64,000 nt of DNA from Rubritalea marina DSM 17716 (GTDB lineage: Bacteria; Verrucomicrobiota; Verrucomicrobiia; Verrucomicrobiales; Akkermansiaceae). Positions 53,995 to 64,000 of the stretch are shown piece after piece. Numbering within the stretch: position 1 is the stretch's first letter; every line of letters starts with the position of its first letter. The translations under genes were made by a program, and so were the position numbers. The stretch is from NCBI RefSeq assembly GCF_000378105.1, contig NZ_KB899249.1, positions 124,001-188,000 of the forward strand, given 5' to 3'. Below the pieces are notes generated by a model that did no database searches, had not been told where the DNA came from, and saw nothing but the letters and a program-made list of their open reading frames with translations.

Positions 53995-54645
53995 TTAGAT
54001 GAGGTTTTTCCGTATCGCAGAGGCGACAGCCGCTGTGATGTTGGGAACCTGAAGTTTCTGATAAATGCGTTCGGTGTAGTAGGCGACTGTGCGCTCACTG
54101 AGTCCTAGTTGGTGGGCCACTTCTTTTTTCACATATCCCATCGACATGAGTTTCAATACCTCTGATTCACGTTTACTAAGTGCGCCTTCTGGGTCTGGGT
54201 CTGCATCGCCGTCGAGAGTGTCGAGAATGAGCTTGGAGAGTTGAGGGTCGATCAGGCAACCGCCATCGATGGTTTCTTGAATGCCACGTCGGATGTCTGC
54301 GATGTGCGCCTCTTTAAGTAGATAGCCCGAGACGCCCAGTCGGATGGCTTCGAGTGCGGTTTGGTAGTCACTTTCTTGGGTGAGAACGAGTATTTTAGCA
54401 TCGGGAAGTTCGTTGCGAATGACCGGTACGAGGCTGAGTCCTCCCATGTTTGGTAGCTTAAGATCCAACAGGAAGATGTCGGTGCTCACCAGCGCCCCTT
54501 GTTGGAGAGCTTCAAGGCAAGATTCCGCATTCTCGTGAATACTCAAGCATTCGAGCTTTGGGCTCATGCTGATCAGGTCCCTCAGGGATTGGATGTAATT
54601 GAGGTTGTCTTCGACGATGGTGATCTGGATGTCTTTATCGCTCAT
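53995..54645 (-). CDS. NarL/FixJ-type response regulator
   Basis: 216 residues. Receiver domain with acidic pocket VEDN (Glu12, Asp13) and phospho-acceptor Asp61 in IFLLDLKLPNMGG, then Lys in GYLLKEA. C-terminal LuxR-type helix-turn-helix (LSKRESEVLKLMSMGYVKKEVAHQLGLSERTVAYYTERIYQKL), which binds short inverted repeats as a dimer. Its start overlaps the last 11 bases of the kinase gene, so the two are an operon. Likely DNA targets are the twin palindromes at 56701 and 56812 (inference). Confidence 0.94.
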   Translation of the reverse strand: MSDKDIQITIVEDNLNYIQSLRDLISMSPKLECLSIHENAESCLEALQQGALVSTDIFLLDLKLPNMGGLSLVPVIRNELPDAKILVLTQESDYQTALEAIRLGVSGYLLKEAHIADIRRGIQETIDGGCLIDPQLSKLILDTLDGDADPDPEGALSKRESEVLKLMSMGYVKKEVAHQLGLSERTVAYYTERIYQKLQVPNITAAVASAIRKNLI

Positions 54646-56698
54646 GGTGGTCGCGTGGTGTGGAGTGGATGCTCAAGGAAACCGTGGTCCCTTGTTGGGG
54701 GTTACTTTGGACGTTGAAGGTTCCTCCAAGACGTTTTGCTCGGTGGCTGAGGGTGCGAGGCTGGGTTTGACTAGCTGAGAATCCAATGCCGTCATCTTGG
54801 ATATTCATCAAGAGTTGTCCGTGGGACACTCGTGATACTGAGAGACTTACTCGCTGCGCATGCGCGTGTTTGTAGGCATTGTGTAGTGCTTCTTTGATGA
54901 ACAAAAATAGGTGCCATTTTTGGTTGGGTACGGCGCGGTCTAACCTACGGAGATCGCTCTGTTTGTAATCGAAGTGGATGTGACCGAGAATATTAGCGGC
55001 CATCACTGGGATCGTCTCTTCTAGGGTGCTTCCTTCCTTATTGGTCTGTAGAAATTGAATGAAATTTCGAGTCTCCTTTGCGGTGCTACGTGCGACATTA
55101 TCGGCACGACTTAGAAGGTCGCTTTGGATTTTACTGGGCTCGGTGAGAGTCTCACCAAGAAGCTGTGTGGTGTGGGCGATGGATGTTAGGTTGGCTCCGA
55201 CTTCATCGTGAAGATCTGCGGAAATTTGCTCGCGCATGGTGAATTCCCGTTGCTGGGCGGATAGGCGAACGATCCATAGCAAGAGAACGAGCAAGGCTAC
55301 CGCCCCCAAGCAAGTGACACCAAAAAACTGAAGTTGTGCGCGTTCACGTGCGATCGAGAGTGAGAGCTTGTCCTGTAGTTGCAGGGTCTTTCGTTCTAGT
55401 GCTGCGCGTGTGGCGAAGTCTTTGAGCCATTGTTTGAGAGGCAGGATTCTGCCTTCGGGCACCCTCCCATCTGAGAGTTTTTCGGTGAGCTCATAGGTGC
55501 CAGATCCGTGAGGTTCGCCAGTACTGCTGAGGATACGAGGTAGGGCTTCCGGTTGATGGACTTGTCCCATTCCAAGAAGTTGGAACTCAGCAATGGCGGT
55601 CCTCTGCCTTTGCATATTAGAAATACGGAAGTCCTGAAGTGGATCACTGACTGTGAGACGGTAGAAGCGCCCGGTACTAGTAGGGAGTGCCTTCATCAAT
55701 GGTGTGTTCCCCGGGCGAGGCAGCTTGCTTTGACTGTCGTAGATCAGGCTGCCTTCAATGGAGCCTGGATGCTCGAGCCGCTCGATGATAATCCTGCGGG
55801 GGAAACTCGTGCCATTGGCTAGGGGGAAGTTCTCCTGAAGCCCGATGGCCACCGGCCAAATGCGAAATTCATCTACCGTTTTTTCAGAGCCTAGGTCGTA
55901 GAGTAAGGTGGTTTCTTTGGCTCCAGTGAGGAAGCCGTCATAGGAGCTTGAAATGTCCCAATCGAGTGGTGAGAAAAAACTAAAACCATCAACTAAGCAA
56001 TGTGGTTGGTAGGTGTATCCAAATCGCACTAAATTGCCTTCATAGGTCTTCACCGGAGCATTTAATGCGATATTCTGAGGACCACTGAAGACATAAAGTT
56101 CTGAGAGCCCGGTAAAGTAAGGTGTCTCCCACCAAATCGGGTTCTTGGGGAATTTATAAATGGTGATTCGGACGCGGGTGCTGAAGAGTGGGCGAGAGCA
56201 TTCAAAGATTTGCGGTTCAATACCGTGGATAGGGTAATCTTCCTTGCTGAAGTCTGCAACGATGTGAGCCTCTCCGGATGAATCAACACACTCGATTTTG
56301 AAACGTTGAGGGAATCCGAAGGGGTGAGACTCGCTGTGGTCATCACTGTGAGTCAATGGCATCAACACAATACTGTCAATCTGCGCAGGGGGGTGAAGGA
56401 CTTCAAAGTGAACTTTCCTCTCTGCTTTCAAAGATTTGTAGCCCATCCCAATCGTCCACGGAGCCATGGATTGGACAGTTTTTGGGAGTGAATCTAACGT
56501 TGCCTGATTGCTATCAATCTGGGCCTTCAGCGCTGTGCTCGAAAGCTTGAATGGTGAAAAAGGTGCGATGCGAAAAAGGAGCGCTAGAAGGGCAATGAAT
56601 ACGCAGGCGATAAGATAGACCATCCATTTCGATTTTCGCTGCATTGATACAGAGTAAATCCAAGAAGTAGGGGGAGACAACTCCTTAATTAAGTTCAT
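54635..56698 (-). CDS. Sensor histidine kinase with probable discoidin-like domains
   Basis: A NarX/DegS-type (HisKA_3) sensor kinase, 687 aa. Short cytoplasmic start and TM1 (MVYLIACVFIALLALLF), a large periplasmic part (about 45-455), TM2 (FFGVTCLGAVALLVLLLWIV), then the DHp motif SADLHDEVGANL (phosphorylated His497), N-box FIKEALHNAYKHA and DDGIGF of the ATPase. The periplasmic part looks like two galactose-binding (F5/8 type C, discoidin) folds: the second begins NIALNAPVKTYEG and contains CLVDGFSF, LLYDLGSEKTVDEFRIWP and RFYRLTVSD. Such domains bind sugars, so it may sense a polysaccharide; this is inference. First gene of the operon with the response regulator. Confidence 0.9.
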   Translation of the reverse strand: MNLIKELSPPTSWIYSVSMQRKSKWMVYLIACVFIALLALLFRIAPFSPFKLSSTALKAQIDSNQATLDSLPKTVQSMAPWTIGMGYKSLKAERKVHFEVLHPPAQIDSIVLMPLTHSDDHSESHPFGFPQRFKIECVDSSGEAHIVADFSKEDYPIHGIEPQIFECSRPLFSTRVRITIYKFPKNPIWWETPYFTGLSELYVFSGPQNIALNAPVKTYEGNLVRFGYTYQPHCLVDGFSFFSPLDWDISSSYDGFLTGAKETTLLYDLGSEKTVDEFRIWPVAIGLQENFPLANGTSFPRRIIIERLEHPGSIEGSLIYDSQSKLPRPGNTPLMKALPTSTGRFYRLTVSDPLQDFRISNMQRQRTAIAEFQLLGMGQVHQPEALPRILSSTGEPHGSGTYELTEKLSDGRVPEGRILPLKQWLKDFATRAALERKTLQLQDKLSLSIARERAQLQFFGVTCLGAVALLVLLLWIVRLSAQQREFTMREQISADLHDEVGANLTSIAHTTQLLGETLTEPSKIQSDLLSRADNVARSTAKETRNFIQFLQTNKEGSTLEETIPVMAANILGHIHFDYKQSDLRRLDRAVPNQKWHLFLFIKEALHNAYKHAHAQRVSLSVSRVSHGQLLMNIQDDGIGFSASQTQPRTLSHRAKRLGGTFNVQSNPQQGTTVSLSIHSTPRDHHER

Positions 56699-56700
56699 GG

Positions 56701-62911: not shown

Positions 62912-62938
62912 GCCCTCGAATCAATAAGACTCATCATC

Positions 62939-64000
62939 ATGAAGCAAACATTACTACTTATTTTCAGCATGTGCAGCATGCTGAGTATTCTGCAGGCAAA
63001 GGAGATACGATTCACCAGTGTGCCAGATTTGTTCAACTGGAATATTAAGAATCCTGAGGCAGGATGGGAAGATTCGCTCGATTGGTTTTTTAAGACACTC
63101 AAAGCAGAAGGGCCTGATTTCACCCTCAATGCAGGAGATCTCATGGATGCTCGCTGGTTTGAAACATCTTTGATTGAAACCAAAACAGAGGAATACTGGC
63201 CAGGGCTCCTCCAGCGCTACGCGGCTCACGATCTTCCAGTCTACATCGCCCCGGGAGACCACGAGTATGGTGATGATCAAGGGTTGAAAGATAGTAGGGT
63301 GGCTCGAGTGTTTGGTGAGCAAATGACCAAACTATTAGGGATGCCTACCAATGGTCCAGACGGGCATGAAGGGAGAGCGTATTGGGTGCGAGAGGGCAAT
63401 TTGCTATTGATCACTCTCGATACTTTTGAGGATGAAGGCAAAGCTTTTGGCTACACTGTTGGGGAGGCTCAGCTTGAGTGGTTTGAGCAAGTGGTCGCTC
63501 AGCACCAAGATGCTGAGTTCATTATAGTTCAAGGGCACCTTCCGATTGTTGGGCCAGTAAGAAGCCAAAATTCCAGTGCGAGTATGCTTCGCGGTGGCAC
63601 GGACTCGAAGATTTGGAAAGCTATGGTGGCCGCTGGCGTGGATGTGTATCTATGTGGCGAGCATCACCGCATTACCACCCATAAAAAAGACGGTATATGG
63701 CAAGTAGTGCATGGCGCGCTATGGGGTACGCAAAAGGATCTCAATTACCTCAAAGGGCTGGTGAAGCCTGGCTCTTTGGAGCTAGAGCTGCGTGAGTTTC
63801 GAGTTGATTACAGCGGCGGGTATATTCAAGACCACCCACACCGTGAAGCGAAGAACAAGCCTCGTGAGATTGTCACGTTGAGCGAGGAGACCATGACAAA
63901 GGGACCAAAGTCATCTGGCACTTTGGTCATTCAAAACAATGGAGGGATCAAGAAAGACCGCGTGGTCAAGGGGTGGTTCGCCCGAGCACTCAATGCTGTT
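62939..64000 (+). CDS. Metallophosphoesterase, secreted (cut by window edge)
   Basis: Runs 354 codons from the ATG at 62939 to the window end without a stop. Signal peptide MKQTLLLIFSMCSMLSILQA. Calcineurin-like motifs follow: NAGDLMD (second metal motif), APGDHEYG (third, GDHE in place of GNHE), QGHLP and CGEHHRITTHKK (fourth and fifth). The first motif, normally D-x-H, reads VPDLFNWN, so His is missing. Probably a secreted phosphatase or phosphodiesterase of two-metal type, 27 bases after the cytochrome gene and likely co-transcribed with it. Its C-terminal part and stop lie outside. Confidence 0.85.
   Translation, partial: MKQTLLLIFSMCSMLSILQAKEIRFTSVPDLFNWNIKNPEAGWEDSLDWFFKTLKAEGPDFTLNAGDLMDARWFETSLIETKTEEYWPGLLQRYAAHDLPVYIAPGDHEYGDDQGLKDSRVARVFGEQMTKLLGMPTNGPDGHEGRAYWVREGNLLLITLDTFEDEGKAFGYTVGEAQLEWFEQVVAQHQDAEFIIVQGHLPIVGPVRSQNSSASMLRGGTDSKIWKAMVAAGVDVYLCGEHHRITTHKKDGIWQVVHGALWGTQKDLNYLKGLVKPGSLELELREFRVDYSGGYIQDHPHREAKNKPREIVTLSEETMTKGPKSSGTLVIQNNGGIKKDRVVKGWFARALNAV

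Follow-up and report, generated by a model that had tools for sequence, protein, structure and literature searches.

A candidate self-regulated glycan-response cassette with a recurring palindromic operator in Rubritalea marina

Described systems closest to the locus

In Bacteroidota, polysaccharide utilization loci occur under the control of hybrid two-component systems. The locus analysed here, at 53995-64000 of a 64,000-nucleotide stretch of the Rubritalea marina DSM 17716 genome (the window, G000:C3:124001-188000; G, C and L numbers stand for genomes, contigs and extracted loci, and the G000 genome of 3.01 Mb is 95.5% complete), resembles them in that a putative glycan sensor lies beside sulfatase/glycosidase genes under its presumed control. 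It differs in having a separate sensor histidine kinase (HK) and NarL-type response regulator (RR), display by a PEP-CTERM surface protein and a common palindromic operator. The Pfam scan of the genes at 53995-64000 showed no SusC or SusD, although the genome was not searched specifically for them. We consider it rather probable that the locus is a self-regulated glycan-response cassette. The sulfatases of marine Verrucomicrobiota and Kiritimatiellota run to dozens or hundreds, and how these bacteria choose which of them to express has been little described; a conserved HK-RR-operator unit provides a concrete, testable assignment of a regulator to its targets.

In other bacteria, PEP-CTERM/exosortase sorting reportedly includes RpoN-dependent expression of PEP-CTERM genes; the window likewise has a PEP-CTERM surface protein that appears to be regulated, but here together with a NarL-type RR and a sulfatase. 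In sequence and in fold, the catalytic domain of that enzyme has S1_16 sulfatases (such as PDB 9fo1, 7oz9 and 7oza) among its best matches. The enzyme, a candidate member of this subfamily, differs from them by an added N-terminal domain, common with the PEP-CTERM protein, and an added C-terminal domain. According to the part of the account of Pontiella agarivorans at hand, HK and RR genes occur near sulfatase and glycoside hydrolase genes, and a role in substrate sensing has been suggested (PMC10880615). A HisKA_3/HATPase_c kinase and a response regulator near sulfatases are thus found in both, whereas the same part of that account describes neither an operator nor a link to PEP-CTERM proteins, and it covers no sensor domain and no clade of orthologs (PMC10880615). 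The main texts of PMC13174399 and PMC8857213 mention neither PEP-CTERM nor two-component systems nor histidine kinases, and no description of the HK-RR/operator/PEP-CTERM/sulfatase unit was found by title in the open-licence literature. Every gene named for this segment in an earlier first-pass annotation is present (Table 1); the contiguous plus-strand arrangement that it gave them holds for the four output genes, whereas the HK and RR genes lie on the minus strand.

A recurring palindrome between divergent genes

The region between the HK and PEP-CTERM genes, which the same annotation had credited with divergent operators, contains two exact copies of ATACGG-N8-CCGTAT, 111 bp apart, and these are the sole exact copies in the genome. 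They are copies of a recurring 24-bp palindrome, a putative operator that is new here, with the consensus CAATATGGTCAATTGACCATATTG. Its conservation was assessed in the clade of HK orthologs, which comprised 13 rows (with a support of 100 in a tree from a quick search, where the window row has a long branch) and to which L056, whose HK is partly masked, was added by its HK and RR matches; 12 loci that show the upstream side of the HK were testable, L047 and L053 ending at a contig edge. A symmetric profile, trained without the locus being tested and compared with 200 dinucleotide shuffles of the upstream regions of orthologous HKs, detected the operator ahead of the HK gene at 8 of the 12 (the window, L042, L043, L046, L048, L050, L056 and L157), none of the 200 shuffles scoring as well. 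For L157, two of 72 other 500-bp stretches scored equally high and probably contain additional sites, at 14954 and 16501. The profile test found no operator in L057 and L058, a sister pair that lies outside the clade in the tree. Where labelled, the site-bearing records belong to Verrucomicrobiota, the Kiritimatiellota family Pontiellaceae and Planctomycetota (a metagenome-assembled genome, MAG). A chance origin of the window pair was rejected on its exactness, its uniqueness in the genome and the shuffle test.

Placement of the sites was followed in 13 HK-bearing genomes, scanned at up to three mismatches. At no more than two mismatches there were 11 distinct places in 7 of the 13 genomes, and nine of them directly precede an HK, PEP-CTERM or sulfatase gene: the HK itself accounts for four (a pair in the window and single ones in an Opitutia MAG and in nwagbin3), three lie before PEP-CTERM genes (G262, G341 and G000:C12) and two before sulfatases, both in nwagbin3. 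The remaining two comprise one before an unannotated 554-residue open reading frame (ORF) in B12227 and one in G383 that looks unrelated. In nwagbin3, a 13.4-kb stretch with six clustered sulfatase genes has places at up to three mismatches before five of them, one of these places being common to the HK and one overlapping the annotated start of the adjoining ORF; six further three-mismatch places elsewhere in that genome are background-like. The third G000 site, at G000:C12:84451, stands 366 nt upstream of a PEP-CTERM gene, and the gene after that one has GH9 and Laminin_G_3 domains. For HK-bearing genomes, the sequence may allow members of the regulon to be picked out.

Gene order around orthologous kinases

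Of the 12 clade loci, 8 have a sulfatase gene in the run divergent from the HK (7 of 11 once the window, whose row was entered by hand, is left out), compared with none of 17 loci of paralogous HKs (Fisher p 2.8e-4 for 7/11 against 0/17); half of the eight also hold a PEP-CTERM gene there. Sulfatase density, taken over an assumed five genes and with first-look candidates entered for some genomes, would predict 1.33 of 11 such loci against the seven observed (P 3.8e-5 under independence, with sulfatase clustering ignored). Of the locus type for perception, surface display and desulfation put forward in the first-pass annotation, which offered conserved gene order as a test, HK-RR, operators, PEP-CTERM protein and sulfatase recur. 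Neither the heme protein nor the metallophosphoesterase is found again in the divergent runs of HK orthologs, and a place for them among the defining parts is not supported. Among the 386 genomes of the order, 8 have a close HK ortholog (E below 1e-98); these come from several genera, and nine other listed genomes of the same genus gave no match. So scattered a distribution would fit gain by transfer or frequent loss.

In the mechanism that we favour, the tandem discoidin-like domains of the HK, lying outside the cytoplasmic membrane, would bind a polysaccharide fragment, probably a sulfated one; it is the recurrence of sulfatases, and this only, that points to a sulfated ligand. The ligand-bound HK would phosphorylate the NarL-type RR, and a dimer of the latter would bind the 24-bp palindrome, twice between the divergent units and once elsewhere in the genome. 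The bound RR would presumably activate, rather than repress, its own operon along with the genes of PEP-CTERM surface proteins and of the secreted sulfatase, and the distant site in G000:C12 would bring the GH9-LamG protein under the same control.

Several observations weigh against this interpretation. Four of the 12 clade loci (L045, L052, L056 and L157) lack a sulfatase in the divergent run, and four (L044, L045, L052 and L099) have no operator recognisable in the profile test. Among the former, L045 shows a divergent secreted-looking start with no ORF called, L056 has other genes in the run, L052 has a transposase-like gene (by eye, 8404-9528) between the HK and sulfatases beyond, and L157 has a repeated transposase-like gene (by eye, 9715-11031, with a related ORF at 17422-18420) and PEP-CTERM genes past the RR; L045 and L056 seem to form one close subgroup and are not independent. 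Across the wide HK family sulfatases are not enriched, and an association at that level was rejected: sulfatases occur at 3 of 19 paralogous loci and in 3 of 19 offset control regions, PEP-CTERM genes at 5 and 2 of 19, respectively (L211, whose HK was not found again by phmmer, was left out of the 17 above, and L216 was counted in the second clade). Near-perfect sites, with at most one mismatch, stand at unrelated genes in G616, G644 and G428. Finally, sulfatases are very common in these genomes, with 37 matches (36 above cut-off) in the 3 Mb of G000 and, elsewhere, as many as several hundred candidates at first look. With HKs and PEP-CTERM genes as frequent as they are, such abundance might by itself produce a neighbourhood of this kind, but we disfavour chance as very improbable, given the excess over the density estimate, the absence of sulfatases from the 17 paralogous divergent runs and the conservation of the operator.

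The near-perfect sites at unrelated genes come from a scan of 387 genomes across the phylum, in which four genomes besides that of the window had a site at no more than one mismatch; the one in G595 coincides in contig position with the site already known from B12227. Two-mismatch palindromes picked by eye in G535, G408 and G628 also lie at unrelated genes, and at two mismatches a backwards control pattern was similarly frequent. Use of the motif as a stand-alone predictor across the phylum was therefore rejected, and it is informative only together with the HK. It might be argued that the palindrome serves another regulator, such as a LacI- or TetR-type repressor, and that the HK-RR pair acts elsewhere, its neighbourhood being co-inherited without forming one circuit. 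The four clade loci with no recognisable palindrome would agree with this; however, within the order a site at no more than one mismatch is limited to 2 of 386 genomes, both among the eight with a close HK ortholog (p 3.8e-4). Symmetric, self-placed sites suit a dimeric LuxR/NarL-type regulator, and the window sites show both features. We regard a separate regulator as quite unlikely, and the RR as the protein that probably binds this putative operator.

Sensor, surface protein and sulfatase

HisKA_3, HATPase_c, receiver and GerE domains all exceed their Pfam cut-offs, which identifies a NarL-type two-component system. The two genes adjoin and overlap (54635-54645), and the RR is 45-56% identical to the RRs across the HK clade; this overlap and co-conservation suggest that they form one pair, between whose members phosphotransfer would take place. 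Met19 of the HK, at 56644, may be its true start. The two probable discoidin-like domains of the first-pass annotation are supported through relatives, though not by a direct match: Pfam names no domain in residues 72-398 of the HK, and PF00754 and PF22633 (F5/8C) match none of the 13 clade sensors. In the AlphaFold model, two beta-rich domains lie between an N-terminal helix and a long helix running into HisKA_3, and one half of the sensor aligns with the other as a homolog (hhalign 93%, E 3e-7), pointing to an internal duplication. The sensor profile aligns with the sensors of paralogous HKs (probability 100, E 2.7e-55, 300 columns), of which 13 of 15 match F5/8C and 14 of 15 a NedA-like galactose-binding variant; in a larger set that includes kinase parts, each is matched by 23 of 39 members. 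Since the Pfam matches occur in these homologous paralogs and not in the window HK, we hold the reading as a tandem discoidin-like pair to be indirectly supported. A profile search of the PDB gave no sequence relative of the sensor, and a fold search gave only kinase-part matches among the matches listed, the sensor being barely covered, which makes the absence of discoidin folds uninformative.

The paralogous HKs of G000 (two on C16 and one on C17) form another clade, in which a sulfatase or PEP-CTERM gene is present in the divergent run at 3 of 8 loci. Their three HK-RR pairs adjoin sulfatase/PEP-CTERM genes (L039:6400-10658, L040:8002-19117 and L038:7599-11739), and the L040 cluster also holds a GH95-family gene and three sulfatases. 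The operators of these pairs may differ from that of the window.

The surface protein scores 21.0 bits with PF07589 (cut-off 20.7) and 21.6 with TIGR02595 (cut-off 16), and four PF09721 exosortase matches in the genome complete its identification as a PEP-CTERM protein. A FGE-type maturation enzyme (PF03781, best E 3e-69), together with the CAPSR motif, likewise identifies the sulfatase as an S1 formylglycine enzyme. The nearest solved relatives of its catalytic domain, by sequence and fold, include S1_16 enzymes, one of which is a kappa-carrageenan sulfatase; the model of the whole protein has a mean pLDDT of 57.5. Near its C terminus is a stretch of the form F-F/Y-R-V/I-x-L, unnamed by Pfam (window 60035-60292), which also ends the sulfatases of L042, L257 and L258 and may be a common C-terminal domain of secreted proteins in the group.

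Over its first 226 residues, the sulfatase shows homology to the PEP-CTERM protein (36%). Because the two have this extracellular domain in common, they probably dock on the same partner, which suggests an enzyme-docking idea and offers a functional context for the PEP-CTERM proteins of the group. Outside G000 the domain was found in 3 of 238 other genomes searched in the order, and in G007 and G058 PEP-CTERM proteins contain it while it also stands ahead of sulfatases. None of the three stretches has the operator at up to four mismatches; their PEP-CTERM genes with the shared domain adjoin genes for ECF sigma factors and FecR proteins, and Laminin_G_3 is present in two of the three FecR proteins of G058. 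From the neighbourhoods, it thus seems that different sensors have come to stand ahead of one and the same output pair. Shared-domain PEP-CTERM and sulfatase genes beside ECF sigma/FecR genes, two with Laminin_G_3, are at L258:1368-18222 and L256:8645-12434. Tentatively, one may imagine a mobile, operator-tagged cassette to sense, display and desulfate that replaces Sus-type loci in the PVC superphylum, in which the shared docking domain would couple polymer capture and desulfation spatially and sensors would be interchangeable (a discoidin HK-RR pair here; a FecR/ECF sigma pair, partly with LamG, in relatives); we think this possible but doubtful.

Foremost among the rival explanations is that the same circuit senses and remodels the cell's own matrix, the HK detecting a self-made sulfated exopolysaccharide, the PEP-CTERM proteins serving as matrix proteins and the sulfatase trimming the polymer. 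PEP-CTERM genes have elsewhere been tied to floc formation, as the title of one paper states, and the exosortase genes of G000 would fit such a role. Yet the nearest solved relatives of the sulfatase include enzymes acting on algal and host glycans, the distant operator precedes the GH9-LamG gene, and HK orthologs occur in Pontiella, which is known for the use of sulfated glycans. Self-matrix sensing therefore appears to us unlikely.

Table 1. Features of the locus (window positions)
Feature	Position	Strand	Basis
RR, NarL/LuxR-type, 216 aa	53995-54645	-	Response_reg PF00072 E 5e-17; GerE PF00196 E 1e-16
HK, membrane sensor histidine kinase, 687 aa	54635-56698	-	HisKA_3 and HATPase_c; model mean pLDDT 83.6
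HK sensor region, residues 72-398	55505-56485	-	Two tandem discoidin-like domains, supported via relatives
Operator copy 1, ATACGGCTATTTGGCCGTAT	56701-56720	.	Exact palindrome
Operator copy 2, ATACGGTTGTTTGACCGTAT	56812-56831	.	Exact palindrome
PEP-CTERM surface protein, 228 aa	56906-57592	+	PF07589, TIGR02595; signal peptide by eye
Secreted formylglycine sulfatase fusion, 871 aa	57680-60295	+	PF00884 E 2.9e-38; CAPSR motif at residue 283
PVC-type propeller/HEAT/cytochrome c protein (heme protein), 860 aa	60329-62911	+	DUF7133, HEAT_2, Cytochrom_C
Calcineurin-like metallophosphoesterase, 625 aa in full	62939-64000, continues past window	+	Domain scan

The gene of the heme protein starts 33 bases past the sulfatase stop, and it and the metallophosphoesterase gene are possibly on the sulfatase's transcript. 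Its translation contains CAGCH and DUF7133 is above its cut-off; with 50.5 bits for TIGR02604 (cut-off 122.2) and 66.8 for TIGR02603 (cut-off 68.15), the protein falls short of an assignment as PVC heme-binding. In L053 and L056, which belong to one subgroup, a heme protein gene is convergent with the RR, and the L053 copy has a weak GH2-like domain. The oxidative step that the annotation had thought possible finds no support, because the heme protein does not recur in the orthologs.

Elsewhere in the window, a region between genes for tRNA-Met and tRNA-Arg (2840-9369) holds three more sulfatase genes, all in plus orientation, at 2840-4426, 4740-7097 and 8014-9369. A minus-strand block at 15247-26017, with raised GC and a strong GC skew (about 0.25), carries acyl-CoA dehydrogenase, 3-hydroxyacyl-CoA dehydrogenase/enoyl-CoA hydratase, thiolase and AMP-binding genes of fatty-acid beta-oxidation, and 35498-39942 encodes an RND efflux pump (AcrB-type, 1050 aa) together with a HlyD-type membrane fusion protein.

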